This document shows positions 11,193 through 40,907 of a stretch of DNA of 40,907 bases, in pieces. Source of the stretch: Holophagales bacterium. GTDB lineage: Bacteria; Acidobacteriota; Thermoanaerobaculia; Multivoradales; Multivoraceae. The stretch spans positions 110,662-151,568 of the forward strand of contig VXUF01000048.1 in NCBI GenBank assembly GCA_009837085.1. Direction: 5' to 3'. Position 1 is the stretch's first letter; every line of letters begins with the position of its first letter. A model generated the notes under the pieces. That model did not search any database, was not told the origin of the DNA, and saw nothing but the letters and a program-made list of their open reading frames with translations. The position numbers and the translations under genes were made by a program.

Positions 11193-11590
11193 GTAGACCA
11201 CTAGAAGCATCAGCCGCCAAGTAGTCAGGCCACGGCGGCGGGGATCCTCGGCGTAGGTTCCGTCGCCGTTGACACGCCACGCGTAGGCGGTCCGGAGCAT
11301 GGAACTGGCGAGCCGTGCGGGGCGGAACTGAGGGGGGCGAGTCAGTTCCACCCTGGCCGCCGTGTTCGGTCGGTGGCTGAACGACCTCAAGATCGACTGC
11401 GGCCCGCACGGCTCTGCCGTTGCGAGAAGGGGAACGATCAGCAGCGTGCCGCGTTGTACTGACAAAGACTGAAAGCGATGCGACGCGTCAGCCGCGAGTC
11501 GAACAGGTTCGTGAGCCACGACTCGCGAAGAGCTGCCGGCCAGGAGAACGTGAGTGTTCTGGACGAGCCGTTGAAGGGGGCCCCTTGCTG
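11193..11590. other. 398-base gap after tRNA-Ser; no convincing gene
   Basis: I see no supported gene here. An inverted repeat GGAACTGA / TCAGTTCC (11324-11331 and 11342-11349, 10-base loop) is the only clear structure. A minus-strand frame through 11190-11300 reads like protein but continues into antisense tRNA. A TTGACA at 11269-11274 has no -10 partner. The plus frame upstream of the TlpA-like gene is open, but without a credible earlier start. Confidence 0.4.
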
Positions 11591-13024
11591 ATGAAGACGA
11601 GATACGAGATGGCGGTTGGTAGGCGGCCTGGATCCGGCGCGGTGCTCGCGATGGTGCTGTCCTTCGGAGCATGCGAAGCCCTGAGCGGGCAGAAAGCCTC
11701 GGCCGCTGAGGAAACCTCAACGGCTTCCGCCGTTGCCGCGGATCCAGACTGGGAGATCGTAGAGGACTACCTCAAGCGCCAAGAGGAGTGGACGAAGCAG
11801 TTGATCCGCGGCGCGCTTGAAGGGGCCTCGGACGACGACCCATCCCCGAGCCTTGGAGGAGAAGCAAAGAAGTTGCCGTCACGGATCATGGTGGTGCGCG
11901 CGCCGGGGGACGGCTCGGCGTCGAGTGCCGATATCCAGGAACGGCTAGGACAGGCGATCGAGTCGAGGGATGACGCCGGCGTGGTCCGGCTAGGGGACAG
12001 TGAGTCGTTCCCGCCGGGCCTGCTGGACCAGGTACTGCGAGCGGCGGCCGCGACTGGAGGAACATCCGAACCTCCGTCCGAGGCCCCGGACGTCGGTCGT
12101 GCCGCCGCGGCGGCGCTGTCGATCCTTGACCAGGGCGGAGCCCACGAGAAGACGGTCAACGCCGCGGAGTTTCTCGTGGACCATGCGGCCGCGGCGCCAG
12201 GAGGTGCCGAGTATGCCTCCAAGGGTGCGAAGGCTCTGCTTGAGTTTGCTCCCGCCTATGAGGGGTGGCCACTCATGCTGCAGCGGCTCAGAGGCGCTGG
12301 GAGATTGGCGTTCCTGACCGGAGACGGGGGCGCGGCGAGAGCGGTCTTCGAGGCGTTGGCTTCCGAGGCCGAGGATCCCGTGTTGCGGGCCGCAGGGCGG
12401 TACTACCTGGCGCTTGAACGGAGGCAGTCCGCGGACGCCCCTGGCGTATCCGATGAAGAGCGTGCGGCCAACCGTCAGGACGCGCTTCAGGCGGCGCGGG
12501 GCCTGAGCCTCGGAGTCGAGGAGGAGACTCTCCCTGGAACCGCGCTGACGTTCGCGGAAGCGGAGGCCGACCTGATCCGCGGCATCCGTCACGGAACGGT
12601 TGGCGGCCAACTGGCGGACGTCGCCGGAAGGCGGCTGGATGGCGTCGAAGAACACCTGTCGGACTACCGTGGCCGTGTCGTGCTTCTCGATTTCTGGGCG
12701 ACGTGGTGCGTGCCGTGCATCGCGGCGTTGCCGCAGAAGCGGCAACTCGTCGCCGATCTGCCCGCGGACCGGTTCGCTCTGCTGTCAATCAGTGTCGACG
12801 CGAAGCTCGAAACCGTCACCGGGTTCATCGAGGACGAGCCGATGCCATGGTCGAACTGGCATGTCGGGATGACGAGCGAGATCACACGGGTCCTGAACGT
12901 CCACTCCTATCCCACGTACATTCTCCTCGACGAAGACGGCAAAGTTCTGGCCAGAACGAACCACCTTCCCGACGAGTTCGTGGCTCGCGTCAAGGAAGCG
13001 GTCGGCCGTGGCCCGGGCGCCTAA
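11591..13024 (+). CDS. TlpA-family thioredoxin-domain protein with a large N-terminal region, probable lipoprotein
   Basis: The 477-residue protein has an N-terminal export signal ending F-G-A-C, an acceptable though not ideal lipobox, then about 320 residues of helical, Ala-rich sequence I do not recognise. The C-terminal 130 residues form a TlpA/ResA-like domain: Y-R-G-R-V-V-L-L-D-F-W-A-T-W-C-V-P-C (Cys373 and Cys376), a P-T-Y-I-L-L-D-E-D-G-K-V strand with the cis-Pro, and an end in E-A-V-G-R. It likely works as an envelope thiol:disulfide oxidoreductase. Start chosen at ATG 11591, where the signal begins. Codon use is less GC-biased than in the atp genes. Confidence 0.82.
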   Translation: MKTRYEMAVGRRPGSGAVLAMVLSFGACEALSGQKASAAEETSTASAVAADPDWEIVEDYLKRQEEWTKQLIRGALEGASDDDPSPSLGGEAKKLPSRIMVVRAPGDGSASSADIQERLGQAIESRDDAGVVRLGDSESFPPGLLDQVLRAAAATGGTSEPPSEAPDVGRAAAAALSILDQGGAHEKTVNAAEFLVDHAAAAPGGAEYASKGAKALLEFAPAYEGWPLMLQRLRGAGRLAFLTGDGGAARAVFEALASEAEDPVLRAAGRYYLALERRQSADAPGVSDEERAANRQDALQAARGLSLGVEEETLPGTALTFAEAEADLIRGIRHGTVGGQLADVAGRRLDGVEEHLSDYRGRVVLLDFWATWCVPCIAALPQKRQLVADLPADRFALLSISVDAKLETVTGFIEDEPMPWSNWHVGMTSEITRVLNVHSYPTYILLDEDGKVLARTNHLPDEFVARVKEAVGRGPGA

Positions 13025-13269
13025 ACACGCCAGACGATCCAGCAGAAACGCAACAGTGTGAACAGCCCTGCCGCTACGCCCAGCGGGATGATCAGGTTGG
13101 TCGCTTGCACGGAACCGAAACCCCGAGTGGACAGGAAGACGGTAAGCAGCGCGGCCGCGAACACCGTGAAACCGATCGTTTCCCATCGGTCGAGCCGGAA
13201 GGTCGGGACGTCGGTCAGACGTCCAGCGGACGAGTCGTCAGGATACTCCGCAGGCGGTGGTAGTCCCAT
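13021..13269 (-). CDS. Small two-helix membrane protein (start uncertain)
   Basis: Up to 82 residues, with two hydrophobic helices: W-E-T-I-G-F-T-V-F-A-A-A-L-L-T-V and N-L-I-I-P-L-G-V-A-A-G-L-F-T-L-L. I do not recognise a family. The ATG at 13269 lies inside the 3' end of the DoxX-like gene, so the two genes would overlap by about 55 bases. The only later candidate is a CTG overlapping the DoxX stop. Its 3' end overlaps the stop of the TlpA-like gene on the other strand by four bases. It is probably co-expressed with the DoxX-like protein. Confidence 0.5.
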   Translation of the reverse strand: MGLPPPAEYPDDSSAGRLTDVPTFRLDRWETIGFTVFAAALLTVFLSTRGFGSVQATNLIIPLGVAAGLFTLLRFCWIVWRV

Positions 13270-13688
13270 AGAAGCAGATAGAGCGCCGCCAGTGCCATCA
13301 GGAAGGTGACAGCTGTGGTCAGGCCGAAGCCCACCGCGATGTTGATGACGTTGATCGACACGATGATCGGCAGGAAGCACACGGCTCCAACGTGGGCGAA
13401 CCGGGGCACCAGCAAGAGAGCGCCTGCGGCGACCTGCGTGGCCCCGATGAAGTTCCAGAACATGCCCGTCTGGTACATCGCCTCGAAGAACGCGCCAATC
13501 GGCTCGTCCACCGGAATCGTCGTGAACCGCCGGCCGAGTAACTTGACAAGCCCGGTCGGAATGAAGCCGGCCGCGAGCAGGATCCGCGTGAACACCGTGA
13601 AGCGCAGGAGCAGCCTCTTCGACCGAACCCAGAGAAAGAGGTGGTCAAGCGCAGTTACGAACGCTCCGTCGCGTCCTTCAGGAGGCAT
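13215..13688 (-). CDS. DoxX-like membrane protein
   Basis: About 157 residues from ATG 13688. Four predicted membrane helices: F-T-R-I-L-L-A-A-G-F-I-P-T-G-L-V-K-L-L, then M-F-W-N-F-I-G-A-T-Q-V-A-A-G-A-L-L-L-V, V-G-A-V-C-F-L-P-I-I-V-S-I-N-V and L-M-A-L-A-A-L-Y-L-L-L. The first-helix F-x-x-x-G-x-x-K pattern and the M-F-W-N-F-I-G-A-T-Q-V-A-A-G motif suit the DoxX/SURF4-like family, whose members are often linked to respiratory or redox functions. The frame is open further upstream to a GTG at 13859, but that extension is not membrane-like. No clear ribosome site. Confidence 0.72.
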   Translation of the reverse strand: MPPEGRDGAFVTALDHLFLWVRSKRLLLRFTVFTRILLAAGFIPTGLVKLLGRRFTTIPVDEPIGAFFEAMYQTGMFWNFIGATQVAAGALLLVPRFAHVGAVCFLPIIVSINVINIAVGFGLTTAVTFLMALAALYLLLWDYHRLRSILTTRPLDV

Positions 13689-13899
13689 ACAGGAGAAGAC
13701 GCTGGCGCGACTCCGGAAGTTACGACGGACCACTGAGTCGACGGACGAGATGCTGATCGGCTTCGTGATCACTGGCACTCCAGCCGAGAACGGGGCGGTG
13801 GAGCCCCGACTGTCAGCCGTGGCCGCGCCCAGGCCCTCAAACGGCTCATCCTGTGACACGAGGGGCGCGAAAGAGCTGCGCGGTGCGATGCGGGGGCGA

Positions 13900-14628
13900 T
13901 CAGAAAAGGAAGGGCTCCAGCAGTAGGTGGATCCCGTTTGCCGCGCTGTGGCAAACGATCGCGAAAGGAAGGCCCCATCGCCAGAACATCCAGCCGAGCA
14001 AGAGGCCCGCGATGCTGCTCTTCAAGGCCATGCCCGTCATGTAGGTCGGCCCCGCTACGCCGCCGTAGAAGATGTGCGCAATGCCGAACGTCAACGCCGA
14101 TACGCCCACGGCCACACGGAAGATGGTGCGGGGGTTGTCTGTGAAGCGAGCGGTGAGCCAAGCCAGGCCACTCAGCAGGCCGAGCCGGAAGACAATCTCC
14201 TCCATGATCGGCCCCTTGACGACAGCTGACAGAGGAGAGAACTGAGACCAACGCGCGACCATCTGCTCGTAGATGGCCGAATTCGCTATTGCCATGCCGT
14301 AGTTGGCACCCAGATTCGCAACGCCGAAAGCGACGCCCAGCCCGAGCGAGAGAATCGCGAGTCGGAGGTGCTCGGCCGATGTCCGATGGGGAACTGGCCG
14401 GCACTGAGCCAACGCGGCCAAGCCCAGCATCGACGCGATGAGCGCCGAAAGCCCGCCCAACATGGCTCCGCTACCGTCGTCTCGGTCGGGGAAGTACAGG
14501 AGCAGCAACACGGCGAACGCGATCGCGCCAGCGGCGAGGAGATTCGTCCACCAGGGTCGGGCCACGGTCGCCTCGCCCATCGGTCCCGTGGACAAGCCGC
14601 CCTGCGTGCTTTCGACCTCTTCGCTCAT
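13900..14628 (-). CDS. CPBP-family intramembrane metalloprotease
   Basis: A 242-residue, multi-helix membrane protein of the CAAX protease/bacteriocin-processing (CPBP, Abi) family. All three active-site motifs are visible: E-E-I-V-F-R (Glu143, Glu144, Arg148), F-G-I-A-H (His185) and H-S-A-A-N (His227, Asn231). It should be an active metal-dependent intramembrane protease; the substrate is unknown. The ATG at 14628 follows a GAAGGGAAG stretch. It diverges from the sulfotransferase gene across 136 bases. Confidence 0.88.
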   Translation of the reverse strand: MSEEVESTQGGLSTGPMGEATVARPWWTNLLAAGAIAFAVLLLLYFPDRDDGSGAMLGGLSALIASMLGLAALAQCRPVPHRTSAEHLRLAILSLGLGVAFGVANLGANYGMAIANSAIYEQMVARWSQFSPLSAVVKGPIMEEIVFRLGLLSGLAWLTARFTDNPRTIFRVAVGVSALTFGIAHIFYGGVAGPTYMTGMALKSSIAGLLLGWMFWRWGLPFAIVCHSAANGIHLLLEPFLF

Positions 14629-14729
14629 GGCTTCCCTTCGAGTCTGGAGTTGCCCGTTCCTGTGACCTCTACACGAATGCGAGCCGCCTTTGGTTACGGA
14701 TCGTGCCGAGCCAGCGGCCCCCCTCCGCT

Positions 14730-14737
14730 GCTACACT
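14730..14737 (+). promoter_or_regulatory. Extended -10 of the sulfotransferase gene
   Basis: TGCTACACT, with TACACT at 14732-14737, inside a 21-base stretch (14725-14745) identical to the tRNA-Ser promoter region at 11078-11098. The predicted start of transcription near 14744 would leave a leader of about 20 bases. Confidence 0.5.
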
Positions 14738-14764
14738 CCGCCGTCTGGGACAGGCAGCGGAGTG

Positions 14765-15541
14765 ATGGACCACGTCGATTCCTACTTGATCTGCACCACT
14801 CCACGCACTGGCAGTACCCTGCTGTGTGGACTGATGGCGTCCACGAAAGTCGCGGGTCAACCCGAGTCGTACTTCCGCGAACCGGACGAGCAGTTGTGGG
14901 CTGCCCGATGGGACATTGTCCCCTCGTTCGATGGGCTCCTTGATCACGCCGAGTTCGTTCGAGCCGCCCTTGCCGCAGGTAGGACCGCCAACGGTGTGTT
15001 TGCCGCCAGGATCATGTGGGGAACCTTGGGCCATTTGGTCGACAGGTTGCGTTCCGTCTACCCTGCTTCCGCTCATGGCGATTTCGACCTGTTGAACCTA
15101 GCCTTCGGCAATACGGGCTTCATCTATCTGCGTCGAGACGACGTTCTGGCGCAGGCTGTGTCGTGGCACCGAGCTGAGCAAACCAATGTCTGGCACGAGA
15201 CGGATCAGGAGGAGTCGAAGCAGCCGGAACAGCGGCCACGCTTCGACTTCAATCAGATCTGGAAGTTGGTGCAAACGATAGAAGAGCACAATGCAGCCTG
15301 GCGGGCTTGGTTTGCTTCCGTGGGGGTTCAGCCGCACATAGTGCGGTACGAAGACCTTGACGCGGACCACGTCGGTGTAGCTCGTGAAGTCCTTGACTTT
15401 CTCGGCCTCAAGCTACCGCCCGGGCGCCTGATCAAGGCGCGCAACAGGCGTATGGCTGACGAGCTCAACGGCCGATGGATCGAGCGTTACCGAGCCGAGT
15501 CGAGGTCGCGACGAGTCGCCCCAGCCTCGATGCCCGGTTGA
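14765..15541 (+). CDS. Stf0-like sulfotransferase
   Basis: PAPS-dependent sulfotransferase of about 258 residues, close to the length of mycobacterial trehalose 2-sulfotransferase Stf0. The N-terminal 5'-phosphosulfate loop reads I-C-T-T-P-R-T-G-S-T-L-L-C, then G-Q-P-E-S-Y-F-R-E-P, F-A-A-R-I-M-W, Y-L-R-R-D-D-V-L-A-Q-A-V-S-W and, towards the end, I-V-R-Y-E-D-L. The acceptor cannot be told from sequence; a sugar or glycolipid is the family expectation. ATG 14765 is chosen because the conserved loop starts nine residues later. The lower-GC codon use stands out from the esterase gene that converges on it only 13 bases away. Confidence 0.85.
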   Translation: MDHVDSYLICTTPRTGSTLLCGLMASTKVAGQPESYFREPDEQLWAARWDIVPSFDGLLDHAEFVRAALAAGRTANGVFAARIMWGTLGHLVDRLRSVYPASAHGDFDLLNLAFGNTGFIYLRRDDVLAQAVSWHRAEQTNVWHETDQEESKQPEQRPRFDFNQIWKLVQTIEEHNAAWRAWFASVGVQPHIVRYEDLDADHVGVAREVLDFLGLKLPPGRLIKARNRRMADELNGRWIERYRAESRSRRVAPASMPG

Positions 15542-15554
15542 CGAAGCTCGCCGC

Positions 15555-17012
15555 CTAACTCAACCCGTACGCCCGCCGCACCTCGTCGCCGTCGGGGTCC
15601 GCGGCAACGTGCGGATCGTCATCGAAGATCAGACACGACCGGCTCGCGCCGTCATAGCGCGGCCACTCCGGCAGGCCGGCGCCGTTCGGATCGCCCGTGC
15701 GGGCGAACTGGACCAGCGAGGCGCCCCAGAGCGTGGCGATCGCGCGGTTCTCGTCCGTGCTCTCGTGGAATGACACGAGGCCCGGCTTCGCCATGGCGAA
15801 CTGGTTGAAGGTGAAGGCGATGTCGCATCCGTGGGTGATGCCGAGAGGGTGATCGGTGGGCACCTCGAAGTTGTAGACCCAGCCGCCGGCGCCCGCGTTG
15901 GTCGCCGCCTCGGCGTTCCGCAGCGACGCCGAACGGAACAGGTCGCACCAGACCTGGGCCACCCTGGCCACCTCGTCGGCGCCCGGGAGCAGTCCGTCGA
16001 AGTGCGAGACGTAGTCCTCGGGGCTGTGCGGGTTGATGAGCGGCAGAAACAGGGCCATCACGATGTCGAGCCCCATCGGCGCCGGCCCGCCGAGATCGGC
16101 CAGGTAGCTTCCCTCGTCCCGGTTGCTCCCGGCGATGAGCGGCGGTCCGCCGGCGTCCTTGCGTGCGACCGCCTCGGCCGTCGGTTGCGTGATCACGGTG
16201 CCGTCCACCGTCTGCGCGGTTGGCGCGGCACCCTGCAGGTAGAGCGCGAAGAGTTCGTCCGCCGAGAGCGCCTGGAGCCGCGCCTCGAGATCGCTCTCGA
16301 TCCCGAGATGCGCGGCCAGCGCGCCGGCCGCGTCGGGCACGGGCAGAATCCCGATGTCGATGTCGCCGGGACTGAAGGCGACGGACCGGTGGAACAGCCC
16401 TTCGGCCGCCGGTGCACCCTGCAGGGCGAGCACGGAGCCGGCGCCGCCGCTCTCGCCCCAGATGCTGACGCAGCCTGGGTCGCCGCCGTAGTCGGCGATG
16501 TTGTCGCGGATCCAGCGGAGCGCCGCGATCTGGTCCTCGAAGCCCCGGCTGACGCTGCCCGCGTAGGCGTCGCCAAGGGCGCTGACGTCGCAGAAGCCGA
16601 AGACGTTCAGGCGGTAGTTGATGGTGACGACGACGCAATCCTGCTCGCGGGCGAGCACGCTGCCGTCGTACTCGTTGGCGGAGCCCTGGAGGTAGCCGCC
16701 GCCGTGGATCCAGCAGATCACCGGCCGGCCCGCGCGGTCCGCGGCCGGCGTGTGCACGTTCAGGTAGAGGCAGTCCTCCGACTGTTGGCCCGGAATCTCG
16801 GGCCCGGCCAGCACCTCGGGATAGGGCGGCTGCGGGCAGCGGTTGGGGTGGCGCGTCGCGTCGAGCGTGCCGCTCCAGGGCGGCGCGGGCTGGGGCGAGC
16901 GCCACCGCAGGCCGCCGGTCGGTGGCGCGGCGTACGGCAGGCCCAGGAAGACGGACACGCCGTCGCGGTCGATGCCCCGCACGGTGCCGAGCCGTGTGCG
17001 AATCGTCGTCAT
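15555..17012 (-). CDS. Type B carboxylesterase/lipase
   Basis: Alpha/beta-hydrolase of the carboxylesterase type B family, 485 residues. Visible motifs: F-L-G-L-P-Y-A-A-P-P near residue 22, S-E-D-C-L-Y-L-N-V, the oxyanion-hole W-I-H-G-G-G, the nucleophile elbow G-E-S-G-G (Ser188), G-S-N-R-D-E-G (acid) and I-T-H-G-C-D-I (likely catalytic His). No signal peptide is seen. The frame is open beyond ATG 17012, but that part overlaps the tannase gene. It starts 11 bases after the tannase stop and has no ribosome site, so the two are probably one transcript acting on related ester substrates. Confidence 0.92.
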   Translation of the reverse strand: MTTIRTRLGTVRGIDRDGVSVFLGLPYAAPPTGGLRWRSPQPAPPWSGTLDATRHPNRCPQPPYPEVLAGPEIPGQQSEDCLYLNVHTPAADRAGRPVICWIHGGGYLQGSANEYDGSVLAREQDCVVVTINYRLNVFGFCDVSALGDAYAGSVSRGFEDQIAALRWIRDNIADYGGDPGCVSIWGESGGAGSVLALQGAPAAEGLFHRSVAFSPGDIDIGILPVPDAAGALAAHLGIESDLEARLQALSADELFALYLQGAAPTAQTVDGTVITQPTAEAVARKDAGGPPLIAGSNRDEGSYLADLGGPAPMGLDIVMALFLPLINPHSPEDYVSHFDGLLPGADEVARVAQVWCDLFRSASLRNAEAATNAGAGGWVYNFEVPTDHPLGITHGCDIAFTFNQFAMAKPGLVSFHESTDENRAIATLWGASLVQFARTGDPNGAGLPEWPRYDGASRSCLIFDDDPHVAADPDGDEVRRAYGLS

Positions 17013-17023
17013 CGGAGGCGTCG

Positions 17024-18586
17024 TCAGTCCGCGACGCAGGCGTAGTTCGCGGCGTCGTTCACGTCGCCGGACCCGTTGTACCGCGCGTACTGCGGATAGG
17101 GGCACAGCGGGCGGGAGAAGCGCTTCCGGTCTTCCAGCGCCTCGCCCGCTTCGAGCATCGCCTCGCTCCAACTGACCGTCCTGTCGCCAAGGGCCACCTG
17201 GCCCTCCAGGAACGTGAAGTTCCCGGGGTGCTCCGCGAGGATCCGGTCGGGCGCTTCGCCGTTCTCCACCCAGTCGACGATCGCCTGGATGTAGTCGGCG
17301 GCCCAGGCGCCGTTTCCGCCCAGGCAGTGGATCATGCCCGGAACCATGAAGGTGCGCAGGTAGTCGCTCATCTCCCCGTTCAGTTCCCCGGCCTCGACCA
17401 GGAACCTCTCCAGCGCCCCGGCGCGGCAGGGGAAGTCGTGCCAGCCGTTGTAGATGATCAGCTTGCCGCCCCTCTCCTGGAACCTGCTGAAGTCGGGCGC
17501 CGGGAGGTCGACCGCGACCATGGCGTCTCTCAGCGCGGGCAGGTCCTTCACGGGGTCGAACGCGTCGATGTCGAAGCCTGGCGTGCGGTGCATTGCCGCC
17601 ACGATCAACTCGACCGTGACGTCGGACGCGGTCCCCTCGAGGAACGGCACGGGACCCGTCGCCCAGAGCTGGAAGTCGCCGTTCAGTTCCGCGCCCGGAT
17701 AGACGCCCGGCACGACGACGGCGCCCGAGTCGTCCGTGATCCCGGTGTAGAGGAAGCGCGCCGTCTCGATCTGGCCGGCCGTGAGGCAGTCGGCGGCGGG
17801 ACCGTCCTGGCATTCGAGAGCGTCGAGTTCGAGCAGCTCGACGGCGCACTTGCGGGGGTCGCCGACGATGCCGTCCGCAACGCCGTCCAGCATGTCGCAG
17901 GCTCTCCGGGTGTTCGCGTCCAGTAACGCCACGGATTCTGCGGAGAGGGGGTTCCGCTTCTGGTGACGGCTCGTCTCGAGCGCGAACGTCAGCAGGCCGA
18001 ACCCGTAGTCGACGGCCGGCGCCCCGGCGATGATGCCGTCGTAGTCGTCCGGATACCGCAACGCCTCCATCAGCGCGGCGCGCCCGCCGTTCGAGCAGCC
18101 CCAGAGGTACGCGTGTTCGACGGGCCGGCCGTAGAACTCCTGGATGATCCGCTTCGCCAGCACCGTCGTCAGGTGATTCGCGCGGAAGCCGAAGTCCAGT
18201 TGCGCGTGATCGTTCCGGTAGAAGGACGGGTCGTTGTCCGGCTCATGGCCGGTGTCGGTCGTCGCCATGGCGAAGCCGTCGTCGAGCAGGCTGCTCGTGT
18301 CTCCGATCACGCCGGCCAGGCCCCCGGGCGCGTGGAACATGAACCGTCCCGTCCAGCCTTCGGCCGGCATGCGGACCTCGAAGCGGATCGTCGCGTCGAT
18401 CGTGCCGCGGACCCGGCAATGCTCCGGGACCTCGCCCGCGGCGGGGACCAGTACGCCCGGTCCCACCGCGTGGTCCGAGTCGGTCAGGAGGTAGAGCGCG
18501 TCGCATCGGTCCGCGGGCGAATCCGCCGCGAGGACGATGCCCGGAAGGGTGAGGCAGACCGAGGTCAGCAGGGCGGGAAAGCGCAT
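17024..18586 (-). CDS. Tannase/feruloyl esterase family protein, exported
   Basis: A 520-residue secreted esterase that would release phenolic acids such as gallate or ferulate from esters. Signal peptide at 1-20, ending V-L-A-A. Family features: nucleophile W-G-C-S-N-G-G-R with Cys164 beside Ser165, the calcium-site-like L-D-G-V-A-D-G-I-V-G-D-P-R-K-C, the acid in I-I-Y-N-G-W-H-D, and the H-C pair in G-M-I-H-C-L-G-G. Together these are the C-S/D/H-C arrangement of tannases. AGGAGA precedes the ATG at a good distance. It heads a two-gene unit with the carboxylesterase. Confidence 0.93.
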   Translation of the reverse strand: MRFPALLTSVCLTLPGIVLAADSPADRCDALYLLTDSDHAVGPGVLVPAAGEVPEHCRVRGTIDATIRFEVRMPAEGWTGRFMFHAPGGLAGVIGDTSSLLDDGFAMATTDTGHEPDNDPSFYRNDHAQLDFGFRANHLTTVLAKRIIQEFYGRPVEHAYLWGCSNGGRAALMEALRYPDDYDGIIAGAPAVDYGFGLLTFALETSRHQKRNPLSAESVALLDANTRRACDMLDGVADGIVGDPRKCAVELLELDALECQDGPAADCLTAGQIETARFLYTGITDDSGAVVVPGVYPGAELNGDFQLWATGPVPFLEGTASDVTVELIVAAMHRTPGFDIDAFDPVKDLPALRDAMVAVDLPAPDFSRFQERGGKLIIYNGWHDFPCRAGALERFLVEAGELNGEMSDYLRTFMVPGMIHCLGGNGAWAADYIQAIVDWVENGEAPDRILAEHPGNFTFLEGQVALGDRTVSWSEAMLEAGEALEDRKRFSRPLCPYPQYARYNGSGDVNDAANYACVAD

Positions 18587-18679
18587 GGGAATCTCCTGGC
18601 AGGTCGCTGCCGTGGTCGACGCGACAGGGGAGCGTTTCAGGAATCCGGAGGCTCGGCGAGGAGTTCCTGGACCTAATCG

Positions 18680-19276
18680 TCAGCGGTCTGACGCGGGCTT
18701 GATCTCCCCCCGCTGCAACACCGGATAGAACTGCGTGAACACGTTGTCCGTCGCAGCATGCTCGGCATGGCAGTCGTAGCACCGTTCCTTCGGGAACGCT
18801 GAGGCCGACTCCCTCAACCCACCCGACCGGTCGCGGAAGCTGAGGTAGGCCCAGCCTTCGGGGTAGCGCTTGCTGTCCTTCACTGCGACCTCCATACCCA
18901 GGAAGTCCTTCTCGAAGTAGCCGGCCTGGTTGATGGACTCGCGGGAGCCCGGCCGGAAGACGTCCATGGGGAGCATGGTTCCCTCGGGGAACTCGCCGGT
19001 CTCGATGAAGTAGCGGTATGCCTCGGGCTGGATGTAGACGTTGGTGAAGGCGCCCGGGCCTTCGCGCTCGGCGGCGTCTTCGTCGTAGCTGAGGCCGAGC
19101 GAGGCTCCGACGAAGACCCAGGTGCGATAGCCGTCGGGGCGGAGGAGGTCGCCGTCGGCGGTGTAGGCGGGGAGGGCCATGCCTTCGACGGAGGGCTTGG
19201 CGTCCGACTGTTGGGCGACGGCAACGAAGGTCGCGATCAGGAGGATGAGGGCTGCTGCTATGGCGATGTTGCGCAC
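18680..19276 (-). CDS. Cytochrome P460-family c-type haem protein
   Basis: A 198-residue exported protein with an N-terminal signal helix (4-20) and one haem-binding C-Y-D-C-H (Cys166, Cys169, His170) near the C-terminus, followed by A-T-D-N-V-F-T-Q-F-Y-P. The body (Y-R-T-W-V-F-V-G-A-S-L-G, V-Y-I-Q-P-E-A-Y) matches the cytochrome P460/cytochrome c'-beta fold. Known members oxidise hydroxylamine or bind NO. Here it lies downstream of the molybdenum hydroxylase genes, so it may serve as their electron acceptor, which is inference. Confidence 0.85.
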   Translation of the reverse strand: MRNIAIAAALILLIATFVAVAQQSDAKPSVEGMALPAYTADGDLLRPDGYRTWVFVGASLGLSYDEDAAEREGPGAFTNVYIQPEAYRYFIETGEFPEGTMLPMDVFRPGSRESINQAGYFEKDFLGMEVAVKDSKRYPEGWAYLSFRDRSGGLRESASAFPKERCYDCHAEHAATDNVFTQFYPVLQRGEIKPASDR

Positions 19277-19313
19277 GGGTGGATTCTACGCGGCAGGATG
19301 GTCGCCGCTTCGC

Positions 19314-19396
19314 GGCGCGTTCTTCTCAGAAGCCGGCGGGGACGCCGGCGGACCCAGTGTGTGGCGCCGTCACCCAGTGTGGGGCGCACCCAGTGG
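19314..19396 (-). repeat. Modular palindromic repeat, copy D with tandem half heads
   Basis: Full head on the minus strand at 19332-19361 with one change. Two further partial heads (CACCCAGTGTG at 19371-19381 and GCGCACCCAGTG at 19384-19395) follow, so three head pieces lie in tandem. The tail module CGCCGCTTCGCGGCG begins just upstream, near 19303-19317. It fills the gap between the cytochrome P460 and iorB genes. Confidence 0.75.
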
Positions 19397-21619
19397 TTAG
19401 GTCCAGCTCAGGTCGTGCTTCGAGATCGGCAGCGAGCGGATCCGCTTGCCGGTGACGGCAAAGATCGCGTTGCACAGGGCCGGCGGCACTGGCGGCAGCG
19501 CGGGCTCACCCAGACCGGTGGGCTGGTTGTCGCTCATCACCCAGTGGACTTCCACCGGCGGCGCCTGGTCGATGCGGAGCAGCTTGAAGTTGTGGAAGTT
19601 GCTCTCGTTCGTGCGGCCGCCGTCGAAGGTGATCTCCTGGTCGAGCGCCTGGCCGAGGCCGTCGAGGGCCGCGCCCTGGACCTGGTTGACGGCGTTGCTC
19701 GGGTTGACGAGCTGTCTGCCGACGTCGCCGGCGACCCAGATCCTGTCGACGCCGAGTTCGCCTTCCTTGCTGACCGTGGCCTGGACGACTTCGGCGAAGT
19801 AGCCGCGGTGGCTGAAGTGGAACGCGACGCCCTGGGCGGTGCCCTCGGGCAGGTCCGCCTTGCCCCAACCCGACTTGTCGCGCACGAGTTCGAGCACGGC
19901 CTTCATCCGCTTTGGGTCGAAGGCTGTCCTGGTCCCGGCTGGCGCCGAGTCGAGCAGGTCGAGCCGGAACTGGAGCGGATCCTTTCCGGCTTCGGCCGCG
20001 AGCTCGTCGATGAACGACTGGACGACGAACGAGATCGCGTTGCTTGTCGGAGCGCGCAGCGCCCCGGTCGGGATGCCGAGCGGCATCTTCGACGCCTGGA
20101 GGGCGAAGTTCGGCACGAAGCCCTGGGGGAACTCGTTCGGCATCATCTCGGCGCTCGGGGCGAATCGCCGACCCTCGCCGAAGCTGACGAAGTGGTCGCG
20201 CCACGCTGTCAGGTTGCCGGCCTCGTCGAGACCGCCCTGCAGATAGTGGTAGCCGCCGGGGCGGAAGTAGTCGAAACGGGTGTCGTCCTCGCGGTTCCAC
20301 ACCAGCTTGACCGGAACTCCCGCCTGCCGCGCGATCAGCGCCGCCTCGAGCATGTAGTCCCAGTACAAGCGCCTCCCGAAGCCCCCTCCCATCCGGGTCA
20401 GGTGGATCGTGATCTGATCCTCGGGAATGCCCAGCGCCTTGGCCAGGTCTCCGCGCGCGAACTGTGGAGTCTGGATCGGCGCCCACATCTCGAGCCCGCC
20501 ATCGTGGAAGTGTGCGGTGGTGTTCTGCGGTTCGAGCGGCGCATGGGCGAGGAAGGGGTACTGGTAGGCGGCCTCGAGCGTCTTCGCCGCGGAGGCCAGG
20601 GCGCCCGCCGCGTCGCCGTCGTTCCTGAGATCCTGTTCCGGCGCCTGCTTCGACAGCTCCTCGGCCCGCCGGTCGAAGGCTGCGGTGCTCTGGGACGCGG
20701 TCGGCCCCTCGTCCCAGGTGACCTCCAGCTTGCTTCGGGCCTCGTTGATCAGCCACCAGGAGTCGCCGACGATGGCGATGCCGTTGGGCGGCGCGACCTG
20801 AAACATCGAGGGCCCGGCGCTTCCGGCCTGAGCGGCCGAGTCGACGACGAAGGCGTCGGTGACGCCGGGCGACGCCTTGACCGCGTCGAGGTTGGCGCTC
20901 TTCACCTTGCCGCCGTGGACCCGGCACTTCTCGAACACGGCGTACTTCATGCCGGGCACGGTGACGTCGATGCCGAAGAGGGGCTTGCCGGTGACGATCT
21001 CCGGGTTGTCGACGCCGGGGATCTCCTGGCCGATGATCCTGAAGTCCTTCGCGTCCTTGAGCGGGACGGTCCGGGGACTCGGCGGCTCGATGTCGGCCGC
21101 GGCGCTCGCTAGTTCGCCGTAGGACAGCGACTTGTTCTTGAAGTGGACGGCGCCGGCCTCGGTGGTGCACTTCTCGGGCTTGGTCTTCCACTCCTTCGCC
21201 GCGGCTTCGACGAGCATGGCGCGGGCGGCCGCGCCCACGCGGCGCATCGACTCGTAGTGCATCGGCGTGGCCATGCTGCCGCCGGCCATCTGGCCCCGGT
21301 ACTTCGTCGCGTCGAAGTCCGCCTGCTCGACGCGCACCTGGCTCCAGGGGATGTCGAGCTCTTCAGCGATGAGCATCGGCAGCATCGTCTTGACGCCCTG
21401 ACCGATCTCGGGGTTCTGGGCCATGATCGTCGCGATGCCGTTCGGCGTCAGGCGGATGAACGCGTTGAGCGCCGTCTCGGCGTCGGCGGTAGCGGCGAAG
21501 GCGCCGCGCGCGCCGTCCAGCGGGAAGCGGGCTCCGAGGAGCATGCCGCCGCCGGCCAGGGCGGTGACGTGAAGGAAGCCGCGCCGGGAGAGGTTGCCTG
21601 TCTTGTCCACGGCGTTCAT
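19397..21619 (-). CDS. iorB: Molybdopterin-binding aldehyde/xanthine-type hydroxylase, IorB-like large subunit
   Basis: Catalytic molybdenum subunit of a two-subunit hydroxylase resembling isoquinoline 1-oxidoreductase; the true substrate is open. The 740-residue protein has a twin-arginine signal ([16 protein letters not shown]), so the folded complex is exported to the periplasm. Characteristic stretches include [35 protein letters not shown] and the C-terminal [11 protein letters not shown]. The fused two-domain layout without FAD or FeS parts is IorB-like. ATG 21619 overlaps the end of the small-subunit gene by four bases. Confidence 0.9.
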
Positions 21620-34177: not shown

Positions 34178-35698
34178 ATGGAGATGCGGACCCGAAGCTC
34201 CAGGATCATTGCCTTGGGAGCGGCCGCCGCGCTCGCGTGGGCCTGCGGAGCGCCCGAGGCCGACGCCCCTGCCGCGGACGCCGGCGACGGCCGCCCGAAC
34301 ATCGTCCTCATCCTCGCCGACGATCTCGGCTACGCCGACATCGGCATCTACGGCAGCGAGATCATCTCCACGCCGCACATCGACGCTCTGGCGGCAAGCG
34401 GCGTGCTCTTTACCGACGGCTACGTCAGCCACCCGGTGTGCAGCCCGTCGCGGGCCGGGCTGATCACCGGCCGCTATCAGCAGCGTCACGGCTGGGAGTT
34501 CAACCCGGCCGGCCGCGACGTGAATGCCGGCATGAGCCTCGACGAGGCGACCCTCGCCGACCGTCTGAAGGGTCTGGGCTACCGGACCGGCATGGTCGGC
34601 AAGTGGCATCTCGGTCACCAGGATCCCCACCACCCGATGAGCCGCGGCTTCGACGAGTACTTCGGTGTGCTCGAAGGCGGCAGCATCTTCATCGACTCCA
34701 GCCTGCCGGGCGTCGAGTACGGCTCGCTTCGCGGCGAGGACGGGCCGACCACCCGCCGGAACAAGGTCCTGCGCGGCTTCGAAGAGGAGAAGGTCGAGCG
34801 TTACCTGACCGACGTCTTCACCGACGAGGCGACAGGCTTCATCGAGCGCAGCGCGGCCGGGGACGAGCCCTTCTTCCTCTACCTCAGCCACACCACGCCG
34901 CACACGCCGCTGCAGGCGACGGCCGAGTACGTCGACGGCTACCGTCACATCGAGGACCCGCGCACCCGGGTCTACGCGGCGATGGTCGCGTCACTCGACG
35001 AGAGCGTGCGCCGCGTGGTCGAGACGCTGAAGGCCCAGGGCGTGTACGAGAACACCCTGATCGCCTTCGCCAGCGACAACGGCTGCGCGGGCTACATCGG
35101 CCACGCCTGCTCCAACGGGCCGCTGTTCGGCTTCAAGCGGTATCACCACGAGGGCGGCGTGCGCGTTCCCTTCATCATCAGTTGGCCGGCGGAGGTCGAA
35201 GGCGGGCAGACGATCGGCCATCCGGTGATCACGCTCGACTACCTGGCGACGTTCACCGCGGCGGCGGGCGGAGAGGCGGAGACCGAAGACAGCGTGAACC
35301 TGCTGCCCTACATGACGGGAGAAGCCGACGGCGCGCCGCACGAGTACCTCTACTGGCGGGCCGGCGCGAGCCGGGCGATCCGGGACGGGCGGTACAAGCT
35401 GATCAAGCTGAACCGGACGGACTTCCGGCCCGACGACCTGCGCGGGGACGGCCGCCTGCAGCCGCCGGAGGGCGGCTGGCCGACCGACTCGCCCCACGGC
35501 CAGCTCACCCTGCTCTACGACCTCGACGCGGACGTCGGCGAAACGAACAACCTGGCCGCGGAGCAGCCGGACGTCGTCGCGCGGCTGGAAGCCGAACTCG
35601 ATTCCTGGCGCGCCACTCTGCTTGAGGAGTCGATCCTGCCCGGCGTGCGCTCGACGATCACCCAGATCGATGGAGAGTGGGTGCAGTTGGTATTCTGA
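34178..35698 (+). CDS. Arylsulfatase-type sulfatase, probable lipoprotein
   Basis: A 506-residue exported sulfatase. The signal ends L-A-W-A-C, a good lipobox. N-I-V-L-I-L-A-D-D-L-G-Y carries the calcium aspartates, and C-S-P-S-R-A-G-L-I-T-G-R (Cys88 to Arg92) is the C-x-P-S-R site whose Cys becomes formylglycine. V-G-K-W-H-L-G-H and A-S-D-N-G-C follow as expected. It needs a formylglycine-generating enzyme, which the FGE-fold protein at 3475 probably is not. AGGGAGG lies six bases before the ATG. A TACGCT at 34132-34137 may be the -10. First gene of the tight run to the window end. Confidence 0.93.
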   Translation: MEMRTRSSRIIALGAAAALAWACGAPEADAPAADAGDGRPNIVLILADDLGYADIGIYGSEIISTPHIDALAASGVLFTDGYVSHPVCSPSRAGLITGRYQQRHGWEFNPAGRDVNAGMSLDEATLADRLKGLGYRTGMVGKWHLGHQDPHHPMSRGFDEYFGVLEGGSIFIDSSLPGVEYGSLRGEDGPTTRRNKVLRGFEEEKVERYLTDVFTDEATGFIERSAAGDEPFFLYLSHTTPHTPLQATAEYVDGYRHIEDPRTRVYAAMVASLDESVRRVVETLKAQGVYENTLIAFASDNGCAGYIGHACSNGPLFGFKRYHHEGGVRVPFIISWPAEVEGGQTIGHPVITLDYLATFTAAAGGEAETEDSVNLLPYMTGEADGAPHEYLYWRAGASRAIRDGRYKLIKLNRTDFRPDDLRGDGRLQPPEGGWPTDSPHGQLTLLYDLDADVGETNNLAAEQPDVVARLEAELDSWRATLLEESILPGVRSTITQIDGEWVQLVF

Positions 35699-35722: not shown

Positions 35723-37468
35723 ATGAGCGGTAACCGGAAGAACGCTGGGCGCGGCGTCGCGGAGACGAGGCGGCTTCTGTGGCCTCCGCGCCGCCGGGTA
35801 CAGGCGGTGCTGGTGCTGGCGCTCGCGCTGGCAGCCGTCCTTCTGTTCCGGGTCCGGCAGGACGTGCGTCAGGCGCGCATCGACCTGCGGATGGCGGAGG
35901 CGGCGATCGCGGGCGAGGACTTCGAAGGCCTCGCCGAGAGGGCGCCGCAACTGCTCGGCCTGGCTGCCCGTCAGGCCGCCGGAGAGAGTCGCTGGCGGGA
36001 GGTGGCGGATCTTTACGACGAGTACGCCGAGCACTTGCCGCCGGCACTGCTGGAGGCCGCCGAAGTCGAACTTGGGCTGAACCGTGTGGTCGCCGAGGAG
36101 GCGTCGGCCGGCGCCGGCGATGCCGCGGCGGAGTCCCTGCCCGAACCGCCCGCGTCGGCCTTCGAGCAGCGGCTGCGCCGGGCGCAACTCGTCGACGCCT
36201 CGGGCATCCAGCAACTGCTCTTCGACCGTCGGGGCCGGCCGCTCGGATCGATCGGCGATGACCGGTCGTTGACCCTGGAAAAGGATCTGCCGGCGGGACT
36301 GGTCCCGCCCGAACTGGCGACTCACCTGCTTCCTCCAGCGCTTCAGCCGCCCGGTCTGGCCGCCGCCGGACCGGGGGCGATGGCCGCCTCCACGGCCGGT
36401 GCGAGGGCGCTGAGGCTGACGATCGACCGGGCCTGGAGCGAGGCGGCTGACAGGGCTCTGGGACGGGAGGAGGGAGCGATCACCGTTCTCGAGATCCCGT
36501 CGGGCGCCGTGCTGGCAGCGGTCAGCAACCGGAATCGACGAAGCCGCTGGCGGGCCCGCGGCGACAGCGTGCTCGATCCGCGCGAGCCGGCCTCGATCGC
36601 CAAGCTGATCACGACGACGGCCGCGATGCGGGCCGGCCTCGATCCGGATAGCGAGATCGCCGACATGACCTGCCGCGGCTCGGTGCTGATGGACGGCGAG
36701 CGTCTGTACTGCGCCGCGATCCGCGGGCGGCTCAGGGGGCTCACCGACGCGATGGCGAGCAGTTGCAACGTCTCCTTCGCCAGGCTTGCGATGGCCGTTG
36801 GAGATCGGGCTTTGGTGGAGGAGTACGAGCGCTACGGCTTCGTGATCGGCGGCCCTCAGGGTGCCGCCGTGCCGAGGAACGCGGTCGGCGTGGTGCATGA
36901 GTACCGCCATCCCGGCAAGCGGCTCGGCGATCTCTCGATCGGCCTGGAGGAGGCTTCCATCACGCCCCTCGGCGCGGCCGTGTTCGCCGCTACGCTCTCG
37001 GATGGGCTGCGACGGGAGCCCAGGTTCGTGCTGCAGGCGGACGGCCTGCTCGGCATCTCGCCACGGACGCCGGTCGCCAACGACCCGGAGGCGGTCGCGG
37101 TCCTGGACCCGTCCTGGCTGGCGCCGCTCCACGAGTCGATGCGAGCCGTCGTGTCGCCGGGCGGTACCGCGAACCGCGTGGCGCCGCGGCGTCTGCGGGT
37201 GGCGATGAAGACGGGGACCGCACGCGGTCCGGACAAGCCCTTCCACGTGAACTACGTCGGCTTCTTCCCCTCGGGCGGGAGCCAGCCGCCACGCTACGCC
37301 TTCGCGGTGCGGGTAACCGGGCAGCCGACCTCGTCTCGCATTCGGCGCGCGGGCTACGCCGTGACGAATCGCCTGCTGCGGGCTCTCGACGGGCTGGTCG
37401 GCGACGAGATCGAGGCTGCCGCCCGCGAGGCGGTGCGGATTACGGGAGCGACCGGAGCGGGACCGTGA
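35723..37468 (+). CDS. Penicillin-binding transpeptidase-domain protein, membrane anchored
   Basis: A 581-residue protein with a basic N-terminus, one membrane helix (about 25-42), an unrecognised periplasmic region of about 180 residues rich in Ala, Glu and Arg, and a transpeptidase domain with all three motifs: S-I-A-K (291-294), S-C-N (347-349) and K-T-G (496-498). It should acylate with beta-lactams and cross-link or edit peptidoglycan. There is no glycosyltransferase, PASTA or clear PBP dimerisation domain, so it is not a plain FtsI or MrdA. It begins 24 bases after the sulfatase and overlaps the multiheme gene in GTGA. A GAGGAG abuts the ATG. Confidence 0.85.
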   Translation: MSGNRKNAGRGVAETRRLLWPPRRRVQAVLVLALALAAVLLFRVRQDVRQARIDLRMAEAAIAGEDFEGLAERAPQLLGLAARQAAGESRWREVADLYDEYAEHLPPALLEAAEVELGLNRVVAEEASAGAGDAAAESLPEPPASAFEQRLRRAQLVDASGIQQLLFDRRGRPLGSIGDDRSLTLEKDLPAGLVPPELATHLLPPALQPPGLAAAGPGAMAASTAGARALRLTIDRAWSEAADRALGREEGAITVLEIPSGAVLAAVSNRNRRSRWRARGDSVLDPREPASIAKLITTTAAMRAGLDPDSEIADMTCRGSVLMDGERLYCAAIRGRLRGLTDAMASSCNVSFARLAMAVGDRALVEEYERYGFVIGGPQGAAVPRNAVGVVHEYRHPGKRLGDLSIGLEEASITPLGAAVFAATLSDGLRREPRFVLQADGLLGISPRTPVANDPEAVAVLDPSWLAPLHESMRAVVSPGGTANRVAPRRLRVAMKTGTARGPDKPFHVNYVGFFPSGGSQPPRYAFAVRVTGQPTSSRIRRAGYAVTNRLLRALDGLVGDEIEAAAREAVRITGATGAGP

Positions 37469-40305
37469 CCGCGGGCGCGGGCTCCGCTCGGCGGCCCCCG
37501 CGACGTCGCTACCGGCCGGTCATCGGGCCCCGGTTGAAGCCGCTCCTGTGGGTGGTCTTCGGGCTCTTCGCGCTGCTCGCGGTCAACTCGTTCTATCTCT
37601 CGGGTGTCCGCGTGGCCGAGGCGGCGACGGGCGAGACGTACCAGAACTGGTTCTACATCTCGATGTTCCTGTTGCACCTGGCGGTGGGGGCGCTGTTCGT
37701 GCTGCCGGTGATCTGGTTCGGCCTGGCCCACATGCGGAACGCGCGGACGCGGCCGAACCGGCGCGCGGTCAAGGTCGGCTACGCGCTCTTCGGTACCGCC
37801 CTGGTCCTTCTGTTCAGCGGCATCGTGCTGACCCGGATCGAGGGCGTGATCACGGTGAACGATCCGACGGTCCGCGGCGTGGCCTACTGGCTCCACGTGC
37901 TCGCTCCCCTGGTGGCGGCCTGGCTGTTCGTGCTCCACCGGCTCGCGGGCAAGCGGATCAACTGGCGGATCGGCGGCCGAGTGGCCGCGGCGGCCGTGGT
38001 GCTGGTCGGCGTCGCCCTGGTGCTCCAGTTCCAGGATCCGCGGGCCTGGAACGTGGAGGGTCCGGAGTCGGGCGAGCAGTACTTCTTCCCGTCGCTGGCG
38101 CGCACCGCTAGCGGCGGTTTCATCCCGGAACACGCGCTGAGCAACGATGCCTACTGCGTGGACTGCCACGCCGACGTTCACGGCCGCTGGGCCTACAGCG
38201 CGCACCGGTTCAGTTCGTTCAACAATCCGGCGTACAGCTTTTCGGTGCAGCAGACGCGCGACAAGGCCTACGAGCGCTCGGGCGACGTCCAGGCGTCCCG
38301 CTTCTGCGCCGGCTGCCACGACCCGGTCGTCTTCTTCTCGGGCGCCTTCGACGATCCCGACTTCGACATCGACCAGCCGGCGGCCCACGCCGGGATCACC
38401 TGCACGTCCTGCCACGCGATCACCCACATCAACAGCCCGCGCGGCAACGCCGACTACACGATCGAGGAACCCCAGCACTACCCGTTCGCGTTCTCGGACT
38501 CCGCAATGCTCCGTTACGTCAACCATCAGCTCGTCAAGGCCAAGCCGGAACTGCACAAGCGGACGTTCCTCAAGCCCCTGCACACGACCTCCGAGTTCTG
38601 CGGCTCCTGCCACAAGGTCCACCTCCCGGAGGAGCTGAACCACTACAAGTTCCTGCGCGGGCAGAACCACTACGACTCGCACCTGCTCTCCGGCGTCTCC
38701 GGACACGGCGTGGCGAGCTTCTACTACCCGCCCAAGGCCGAGCCGAACTGCAACGGCTGTCACATGGAGCTGCTGCCGTCGGAGGACTTCGGTTCCCGGC
38801 GCTACCCGGAGAGTGAGCAGCCGAACCTCACCCAGGTCCACGACCACCTGTTCCCCTCCGCCAACACCGGCATTCCGCATCTGCTGGACTTTCCGGACTG
38901 GGTGATCGAGGCGCACCGGGAGTTCAACGAGGGCGTGGTCGACGTCGACATCTTCGGTGTCAAGACGGGCGGCACGATCGAGGACGAGCTGATCGCGCCG
39001 CTACGGCCGGAGGTGCCCGCACTCGAGCCGGGGGAGGACTACCTGCTGGAAGTCGTCGTGCGCACCCTGAGCCTGGGTCACCATCTGACCCAGGGCACGG
39101 CGGATTCGAACCAGCTCTGGCTCGATGTCGAGGTGCGCGACGAGCACGGCGAGCTGGTCGGCCGCAGCGGCGGCCTGGGCGAGGGCAACCGGGTCGATCC
39201 CTGGTCGCACTTCATCAACGTCTACATGCTCGACCGGGACGGCGCGCGAATCGACCGCCGCAACGCGGAGGACATCTTCGTGCCGCTCTACGACCACCAG
39301 ATCCCGCCGGGAGCGGGCGACGTGGTCCACTACCGGCTGGAGGTGCCGCCGGCGGGCGCCGTCACGGCGCTGACGGTGGAGGCGGCGCTTCGCTACCGCA
39401 AGTTCGACACGACCTACCTGCGCCACATCTACGGTCCGGAGACGGCGAACGAGCTGCCGATCCTCGACCTGGCCCGGGACTCGGTGACGTTTCAGGTGGG
39501 CGGCGCGGCGGCTCCCGAGCCGCCGGCCGCGTCGGTTCGCCAGCCGGCCAAGCCGCCATGGCAACGCTGGAACGACTACGGCATCGGCCTGCTGCGCAAG
39601 GGCGGCACAGGCCTTGGCGAGCTGCGCCAGGCGATCGAGGCCTTCACGCGGGTCGAGGAGCTGGGCCGCCCGGACGGTCCGCTCAACCTGGCGCGCGTCT
39701 ACCTTGCCCAGGGCACGGTGCGGGACGACGCCATCGCGGCGCTGGAGCGCGCGGCGGCCTTCGATCCGCCGGCGCCGAGCTGGTCGGTCGCCTGGTTCTC
39801 GGGCCTGGTGAACCTGCAGAACGGCGCGATCGACGACGCGGTCTCGAACTTCCGCTCGATCCTCGAGGCGGACAGCGAGGAAATGCGCCGGCGCGGTTTC
39901 GACTTCAGCCGCGACGTGCGGCTGCACAACGAACTCGGACTGGCCCTGTTCGAACGCGCCAAGCGGGAGCGCGGCCCGGCCCGGGCCGATGCGCGGGCGG
40001 ATCGGCTGCACGAAGCCCGCGAGTCGTTCGAACGGGCGCTCGTCATCGACCCGGAGAACGTGACGGCGCACTACAACCTCGGCCTGATCCACGCCCAGCT
40101 CGGCGACGCGGACAGCGCAGTCCGGCACCGCGAGCTTCACGCGCGCTACAAGCCCGACGACAACGCCCGCGACCGGGCGATCGGCATCGCCAGGCGCGCC
40201 GACGCCGCGGCCGATCACGCCGCGGAGGCGATCGTCATCTACGACCTGCACCGGCCCGAGCGTTTCGAGGGTAGCCGGGCAGCAGTTGCCGGAGGCGGCG
40301 GTTGA
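37465..40305 (+). CDS. Membrane multiheme cytochrome c with C-terminal TPRs
   Basis: A 946-residue fusion. About five membrane helices (roughly 27-46, 64-88, 104-122, 135-157, 168-188) with histidines in helices 2 and 4 form a cytochrome-b-like anchor. Then come five haem-binding motifs: C-V-D-C-H (231), C-A-G-C-H (281), C-T-S-C-H (313), C-G-S-C-H (379) and C-N-G-C-H (429), in a cytochrome c554-like segment. A beta-rich region of about 230 residues follows, then tetratricopeptide repeats from about 690 (A-H-Y-N-L-G-L-I-H-A-Q-L-G-D is one). It probably carries electrons between the quinone pool and the periplasm or surface. The GTG start overlaps the PBP stop. Confidence 0.88.
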   Translation: MTAGAGSARRPPRRRYRPVIGPRLKPLLWVVFGLFALLAVNSFYLSGVRVAEAATGETYQNWFYISMFLLHLAVGALFVLPVIWFGLAHMRNARTRPNRRAVKVGYALFGTALVLLFSGIVLTRIEGVITVNDPTVRGVAYWLHVLAPLVAAWLFVLHRLAGKRINWRIGGRVAAAAVVLVGVALVLQFQDPRAWNVEGPESGEQYFFPSLARTASGGFIPEHALSNDAYCVDCHADVHGRWAYSAHRFSSFNNPAYSFSVQQTRDKAYERSGDVQASRFCAGCHDPVVFFSGAFDDPDFDIDQPAAHAGITCTSCHAITHINSPRGNADYTIEEPQHYPFAFSDSAMLRYVNHQLVKAKPELHKRTFLKPLHTTSEFCGSCHKVHLPEELNHYKFLRGQNHYDSHLLSGVSGHGVASFYYPPKAEPNCNGCHMELLPSEDFGSRRYPESEQPNLTQVHDHLFPSANTGIPHLLDFPDWVIEAHREFNEGVVDVDIFGVKTGGTIEDELIAPLRPEVPALEPGEDYLLEVVVRTLSLGHHLTQGTADSNQLWLDVEVRDEHGELVGRSGGLGEGNRVDPWSHFINVYMLDRDGARIDRRNAEDIFVPLYDHQIPPGAGDVVHYRLEVPPAGAVTALTVEAALRYRKFDTTYLRHIYGPETANELPILDLARDSVTFQVGGAAAPEPPAASVRQPAKPPWQRWNDYGIGLLRKGGTGLGELRQAIEAFTRVEELGRPDGPLNLARVYLAQGTVRDDAIAALERAAAFDPPAPSWSVAWFSGLVNLQNGAIDDAVSNFRSILEADSEEMRRRGFDFSRDVRLHNELGLALFERAKRERGPARADARADRLHEARESFERALVIDPENVTAHYNLGLIHAQLGDADSAVRHRELHARYKPDDNARDRAIGIARRADAAADHAAEAIVIYDLHRPERFEGSRAAVAGGGG

Positions 40306-40907
40306 GGCCGGATCGTCCGGACGAGGAGCCGGAGGAGTTCGGGGAAGGGCCGGGGGCCGGGGAACCGGTCCCCGAGGAGGAACTCGCGCCGGAAGACGAT
40401 GCGGTCATCGGCCGCGTCTTCACGCGTTCCCTCAAGGTCCTGGCGGCCCTGGCGGCCGCCGCGCTCATCGTCGTGGCGCTCCGCTACGTGTTCCGGTCCG
40501 GGCCGGAGGAAGCGGTCGAGATTCCCGTGGCCGCGCCGCGCGCCGTCGAGGCGGCGCCGCGGGACGTGCCCGTCGTGCCCTTCACGGACATCACCGCGGA
40601 GGCCGGCATCGACTTCGTCCATGTCAACGGCGCCGCGGGTGAGGCCCTGCTGCCGGAGACGATGGGCGCCGGCGGGGCCTTCCTCGACTTCGACCGCGAC
40701 GGCGACCAGGACCTCCTGCTCGTCAACTCGACGACCTGGGACGCAGTTCTCCCGGACGGGGAGGTTGGGCCGAACACCGGACCTACGATGTCACTGTATG
40801 AGAACGATGGCGCCGGCAGGTTCGCGGACCTCACGGCGGGCTCGGGCCTGGAGGTCAGCTTCTACGGCACGGGCGTCGCGGTCGGCGACGTCGACGGTGA
40901 CGGCTGG
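40302..40907 (+). CDS. FG-GAP/ASPIC-UnbV (CRTAC1-type) protein, 3' truncated by window edge
   Basis: The frame starts with TTG 40302 inside TTGA, overlapping the multiheme stop, and has an ideal GGAGG at 40291-40295 six bases ahead. The 202 visible residues are an acidic, Pro-rich cytoplasmic tail, one membrane helix (about 44-62), then P-F-T-D-I-T-A-E-A-G-I-D-F and F-L-D-F-D-R-D-G-D-Q-D-L-L-L-V-N, the calcium-binding D-x-D-x-D-G-D loop of FG-GAP/VCBS propellers, and another at the window end (D-V-D-G-D-G). The start of CRTAC1-family proteins looks like this. Full length and the ASPIC domain cannot be seen. Confidence 0.82.
   Translation, partial: MRPDRPDEEPEEFGEGPGAGEPVPEEELAPEDDAVIGRVFTRSLKVLAALAAAALIVVALRYVFRSGPEEAVEIPVAAPRAVEAAPRDVPVVPFTDITAEAGIDFVHVNGAAGEALLPETMGAGGAFLDFDRDGDQDLLLVNSTTWDAVLPDGEVGPNTGPTMSLYENDGAGRFADLTAGSGLEVSFYGTGVAVGDVDGDGW

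Follow-up and report, generated by a model that had tools for sequence, protein, structure and literature searches.

A class-B-like transpeptidase gene overlapping a five-haem cytochrome and CRTAC1-type gene pair in one genus of Acidobacteriota

Overview

In a 40,907-nucleotide stretch of the genome of a Holophagales bacterium (the window), the gene for a PBP-type transpeptidase (PBP) overlaps the gene for a five-haem cytochrome, which in turn overlaps a CRTAC1-type gene. The cytochrome and CRTAC1 genes form the older pair, and the transpeptidase stands in front of them in a single genus of uncultured Acidobacteriota. An accessory class-B-like transpeptidase has probably moved ahead of an existing redox pair, and this would have brought the three genes under co-expression. 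No description of an operon that joins a PBP to a multihaem gene was found in the open-access literature searched.

Gene arrangement of the locus

The features of the locus are given below. Genes were called with a simple ORF script and their starts are rough. The motifs, overlaps and ribosome site were read from the sequence.

34178..35698, + strand: type I sulfatase gene, the upstream neighbour (Pfam Sulfatase, 1.2e-59; CSPSR motif at residue 88; lipoprotein-like N-terminus)
35723..37468, + strand: PBP-type D,D-transpeptidase gene, class-B-like (Pfam Transpeptidase, PF00905, 2.9e-25)
36593..36604, + strand: SIAK, the S-x-x-K motif with the catalytic serine, PBP residue 291
36761..36769, + strand: SCN, the S-x-N motif, PBP residue 347
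37208..37216, + strand: KTG, the K-T-G motif, PBP residue 496
37465..37468, + strand: GTGA, overlap of the PBP stop and the cytochrome start
37465..40305, + strand: gene for a membrane-anchored five-haem cytochrome with C-terminal TPRs (Pfam Cytochrome_C554, PF13435, 1.1e-06, and TPR)
40291..40295, + strand: GGAGG, 6 nt before the TTG start of the CRTAC1-type gene
40302..40305, + strand: TTGA, overlap of the cytochrome stop and the CRTAC1 start
40302..40907, + strand: CRTAC1-type gene, open at the window end (Pfam FG-GAP_3, 1e-07)

The gene names and both overlaps given in an initial annotation of this DNA are borne out by the sequence reading and the Pfam matches. The same is true of the three intact transpeptidase motifs, of the ribosome site placed at the TTGA overlap and of the gap of 24 nt between the sulfatase stop and the PBP start.

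The window ends at position 40907, inside the CRTAC1-type gene, and a short run of unknown bases (a scaffold gap) lies just beyond, at about position 11570 of locus L006. Because the unknown bases directly follow the window end, the CRTAC1-type frame is apparently broken in the assembly. Two further groups of genes are seen downstream in L006. Positions 12928-15696 hold two consecutive related genes, and the one scanned is an amidohydrolase. Positions 15710-19553 hold a run of three genes that resemble one another and encode 416-452 residues, and the sole match of the one scanned is a C-terminal RTX-type calcium-binding repeat.

The transpeptidase is an additional PBP

Like the class B PBPs, which include FtsI/PBP3, PBP2/MrdA, PBPA and the solved enzymes of Atopobium parvulum and M. 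tuberculosis, PBP has an N-terminal membrane anchor, a transpeptidase fold that begins at about residue 158 and the three motifs of the transpeptidase domain. The anchor is a single TM-like segment (residues 26-44), and residues 23-62 form a helix in the AlphaFold2 model, which has a mean pLDDT of 81.6. Residues 158-561 were compared with class B PBPs by VIA-align, and 4r0q was matched with a Z of 36.7 and an rmsd of 2.9 over 359 residues. However, PBP differs from these enzymes in its N-terminal region, in lacking a dedicated SEDS gene and in forming a separate clade. The region before residue 158 is poorly conserved in the alignment, is predicted to be helical and is barely covered by the structural comparison. 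Transpeptidase is the sole Pfam family above the cut-off, and no match to the PBP_dimer (pedestal) domain was found up to E 0.1. The protein is termed class-B-like only, because a PBP_dimer match is missing.

The three motifs are kept in all 19 genus PBP sequences compared, with SISK as the S-x-x-K motif in three of them. The median dN/dS in the genus is 0.20 for PBP, 0.11 for the cytochrome and 0.14 for CRTAC1. The motif and dN/dS sets comprised 15 sulfatase, 19 PBP, 17 cytochrome and 18 CRTAC1 sequences; the window CRTAC1 was excluded, as was every row that had stops, Ns or low coverage. The intact motifs and the dN/dS of 0.20 show that PBP is under purifying selection, and they rule out that it is a pseudogene.

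The initial annotation had noted that PBP could simply be the only PBP2/FtsI of the genome. This is rejected, as FtsI and PBP2 are separate genes and the window PBP is a fourth, extra one. Four PF00905 genes are present in the genome. The gene on C88 is FtsI and groups with the FtsI of relatives in the tree (97/97), the gene on C101 is a PBP2, MrdA-type by cut-off and followed by a SEDS gene, and the gene on C65 is PBP1A-type by cut-off. The best NCBIfam match of the window PBP is pbp2_mrdA, at 85.8 bits against a cut-off of 455. In the tree it falls with neither FtsI nor PBP2 and belongs to a clade of its own (100/100). The genus PBPs stand in the tree beside those of sister genera of the same family (97/93). 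The other 20 genus genomes have four or five PF00905 matches each.

Two SEDS genes are found in the genome, which is 96.6% complete. One lies beside PBP2 and the other, on C71, is taken as FtsW. There is no SEDS gene at the PBP locus. As the genome has only these two SEDS genes, the fourth PBP is left with no SEDS partner of its own.

The cytochrome and CRTAC1 form an older pair

The cytochrome has the features of a multihaem c-type protein, with a cytochrome domain and five CxxCH motifs at residues 231, 281, 313, 379 and 429. It also has five TM-like segments, and a PDB sequence search with it returned mostly TPR chains. A search of 60 genomes, own genome included, found cytochromes of this kind in 56. 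In two genomes, G016 and G020, the match is split into two pieces, by a frameshift or an assembly error. The window part of the CRTAC1-type gene, itself cut, contains FG-GAP, and its orthologue in another member of the genus (L121) has both FG-GAP and UnbV_ASPIC.

All 20 cytochromes examined outside the genus have five CxxCH motifs and similar lengths. CRTAC1 is directly downstream on the same strand at 14 of these 20 loci, one of which (L090) has a partial CRTAC1 match at a contig edge. The remaining loci vary. At L099 and L100 the CRTAC1 gene lies on the opposite strand, separated from the cytochrome by one called gene, at L087 it lies about 2 kb further on along the same strand, at L083 there are CRTAC1 copies upstream only, and at L081 and L086 no CRTAC1 was seen. 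PBP was found at none of the 20 loci (E 1e-3). These loci outside the genus identify the cytochrome and CRTAC1 genes as the older pair and PBP as the newcomer.

A related gene neighbourhood is known. In PMC12758564, a CRTAC1-family gene is reported beside multihaem genes near hydrazine-synthase-like genes in Planctomycetota and Desulfobacterota. The adjoining of a multihaem gene and a CRTAC1-family gene is common to those loci and the present one. The haem genes at those loci are homologues of hydrazine synthase subunits, whereas the gene here encodes a cytochrome c554-like protein that is anchored in the membrane and carries TPRs.

Origin of the arrangement

Relatives of PBP with about 38-45% identity occur at 12 loci outside the genus. 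The cytochrome was found at 0 of these 12 within the stretch examined, several of them having short flanks and seven (L139-L143, L148 and L149) apparently being the same contigs as L037-L043. One of the 12 has a weak CRTAC1 match about 4 kb away. In all three sister genera of the same family (L037, L041 and L043) PBP comes directly after the gene of a TPR protein, and this neighbour was not found at PBP loci outside the family. Two of the TPR proteins were read by eye and have lipoprotein-like N-termini. The PBP and the TPR lipoprotein-like gene of the sister genera are a possible regulator pair.

Where was PBP before it stood beside the cytochrome? In G021 two acyl-CoA dehydrogenase genes lie about 8 kb upstream of PBP, and in G022 and G023 they are close to it. 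The genus genomes G000, G010 and G019 have kept this dehydrogenase pair at 68-78% identity, with no TPR gene and no PBP next to it. A search for an orthologue of the TPR protein in the same three genomes gave best matches of 26-35%, and none in G010 (1e-15). In the sister genera a divergent gene precedes the cytochrome; these genes fall in a single cluster, represented in G022 by ClpS. An ancestral linkage of PBP and cytochrome that was lost elsewhere was considered and rejected, since G000, G010 and G019 keep the dehydrogenase pair with neither TPR gene nor PBP and the sister genera have all of these together.

Relocation within the lineage is the simplest account of the position of PBP, with the ancestral state set from the three sister genera only. 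The same pattern would be expected had PBP been acquired from a close relative and the old copy then lost, which may have happened instead. The initial annotation saw in PBP a dedicated partner of a redox complex. This does not agree with its absence from the 20 outside cytochrome loci or with its place behind a TPR protein in all three sister genera.

Coupling within the genus

All 21 genus genomes surveyed, among them the own genome and L025 (cut at a contig edge), place the cytochrome start at -4 relative to the last base of the PBP stop, an exact overlap of 4 nt. A contig scan found PBP, cytochrome and CRTAC1 together at all 18 genus loci. Many of the genus genomes are presumably of sponge origin. 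Gene order around the cytochrome in relatives had been proposed as the check on its link with PBP. The link stood within the genus, at every genome and locus surveyed (21/21 and 18/18), but not outside it (0/20 and 0/12).

Adjacency within the genus is by itself weak evidence, because the surrounding gene order is largely conserved, the diverged genome G019 included, and overlaps of 4 nt are common. A simple ORF caller placed them in 12 of the 90 pairs of neighbouring genes that share a strand in 180 kb of contig. These two observations would also suit a neutral history, in which a single rearrangement created the adjacency, slow change of gene order preserved it, and co-expression brought no benefit. 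Such a history is unlikely. The unvarying overlap is stronger evidence than adjacency, and it has stayed exact in all 21 genomes although PBP identity in the genus falls to 74% and the sequence at the PBP C-terminus is variable. In addition, the order sulfatase, PBP, cytochrome, CRTAC1 is intact in G019, the most diverged genome compared, although both flanks have changed there. That every one of the 21 genomes has the GTGA overlap makes co-translation of the unit credible within the genus.

The sulfatase was suggested as a further member of the unit, and this is not sustained. It is present at 17 of the 18 genus loci, with L134 cut at a contig edge. Its gap to PBP is 22-25 nt in most genus genomes and longer or unclear in several. 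At E 1e-20 the window sulfatase has 30 matches in its own genome (a count of matches, so that the number of genes may be lower), 16 in G019 and 0 to 9 in six others. A relative with 67% identity in G023 is on a contig apart from both the PBP and the cytochrome contigs. Only position marks the sulfatase as a member, and the link is weak.

Proposed links between the transpeptidase and the cytochrome

PBP could be functionally tied to the cytochrome through TPRs. The TPR neighbour of the sister genera would then perhaps be an Lpo-like regulator that was lost here, and the TPR tail of the cytochrome would serve as a scaffold or regulator. The TPR protein directly upstream of PBP in the three sister genera and the lack of a clear orthologue in G000, G010 and G019 are consistent with this, as is the overlap kept in every genus genome. 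The TPR lipoprotein-like neighbour of the PBP relatives is also reminiscent of the Lpo-type regulators LpoA, LpoP and CpoB. We nevertheless regard the tie as quite doubtful. The TPR regulators known from elsewhere act on class A PBPs (PMC7267771), and in the window genus the TPR gene of the sister genera does not stand beside PBP. The cytochrome has five haems and a similar length in relatives in which PBP is not its neighbour, no TPR neighbour was found at PBP loci outside the family, and the cytochrome TPRs resemble the TPR lipoprotein only slightly (best E 0.002 over 28 residues). A bolder form would have the cytochrome TPR tail replace the lost TPR lipoprotein for a PBP that lacks a SEDS partner, and so physically couple cross-linking to respiratory electron transfer. 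This is very improbable.

It was also suggested at the outset that the transpeptidase locally opens peptidoglycan, or uses the wall as an anchor, for a large redox complex. PBP and the cytochrome are both membrane-anchored envelope proteins encoded by overlapping genes, in a unit conserved across the genus, but the suggestion finds no specific support and is highly unlikely, as a transpeptidase forms cross-links and wall opening requires a hydrolase, no such enzyme was found among the genes named by Pfam, and the two partners are apart outside the genus, where the cytochrome is kept with no PBP next to it.

Proposed history and implications

The explanation that we prefer remains the arrival of an accessory transpeptidase in front of a redox pair. 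In the ancestor of the genus, PBP would have left its place after a TPR gene and near acyl-CoA dehydrogenase genes, and landed directly upstream of a pre-existing pair of a five-haem TPR cytochrome and CRTAC1. The overlap would make translation of the cytochrome follow that of PBP, and with translation coupled in this way the three envelope proteins would be made together. Presumably PBP forms the cross-links of peptidoglycan through the usual serine mechanism, and does so with no dedicated SEDS partner. The cytochrome presumably moves electrons through the membrane to periplasmic haems, and CRTAC1 is presumably its anchored beta-propeller partner. Enzyme activity, electron flow and co-transcription are suggested here by the protein families and the gene layout.

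We infer that PBP and the cytochrome do not make up one machine. A purpose-built wall-plus-redox machine is unlikely because its two parts live apart in related bacteria. Two observations can be held against the preferred explanation. The exactness of the overlap next to a variable PBP C-terminus may mean that selection favours the making of a complex in balanced amounts, and the four-gene block has stayed together in G019, where both flanks changed.

If the TPR reading were true, it would link wall synthesis to respiration. On the conservative reading, the locus illustrates that an operon may seem functional in one genus and be dissolved in its sister genera, and it shows the need for gene-order checks beyond the genus. 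It also draws attention to Acidobacteriota transpeptidases that are class-B-like and form a family apart, with no match to the usual pedestal, a TPR lipoprotein-like neighbour in three sister genera and, in this genome, no dedicated SEDS partner.
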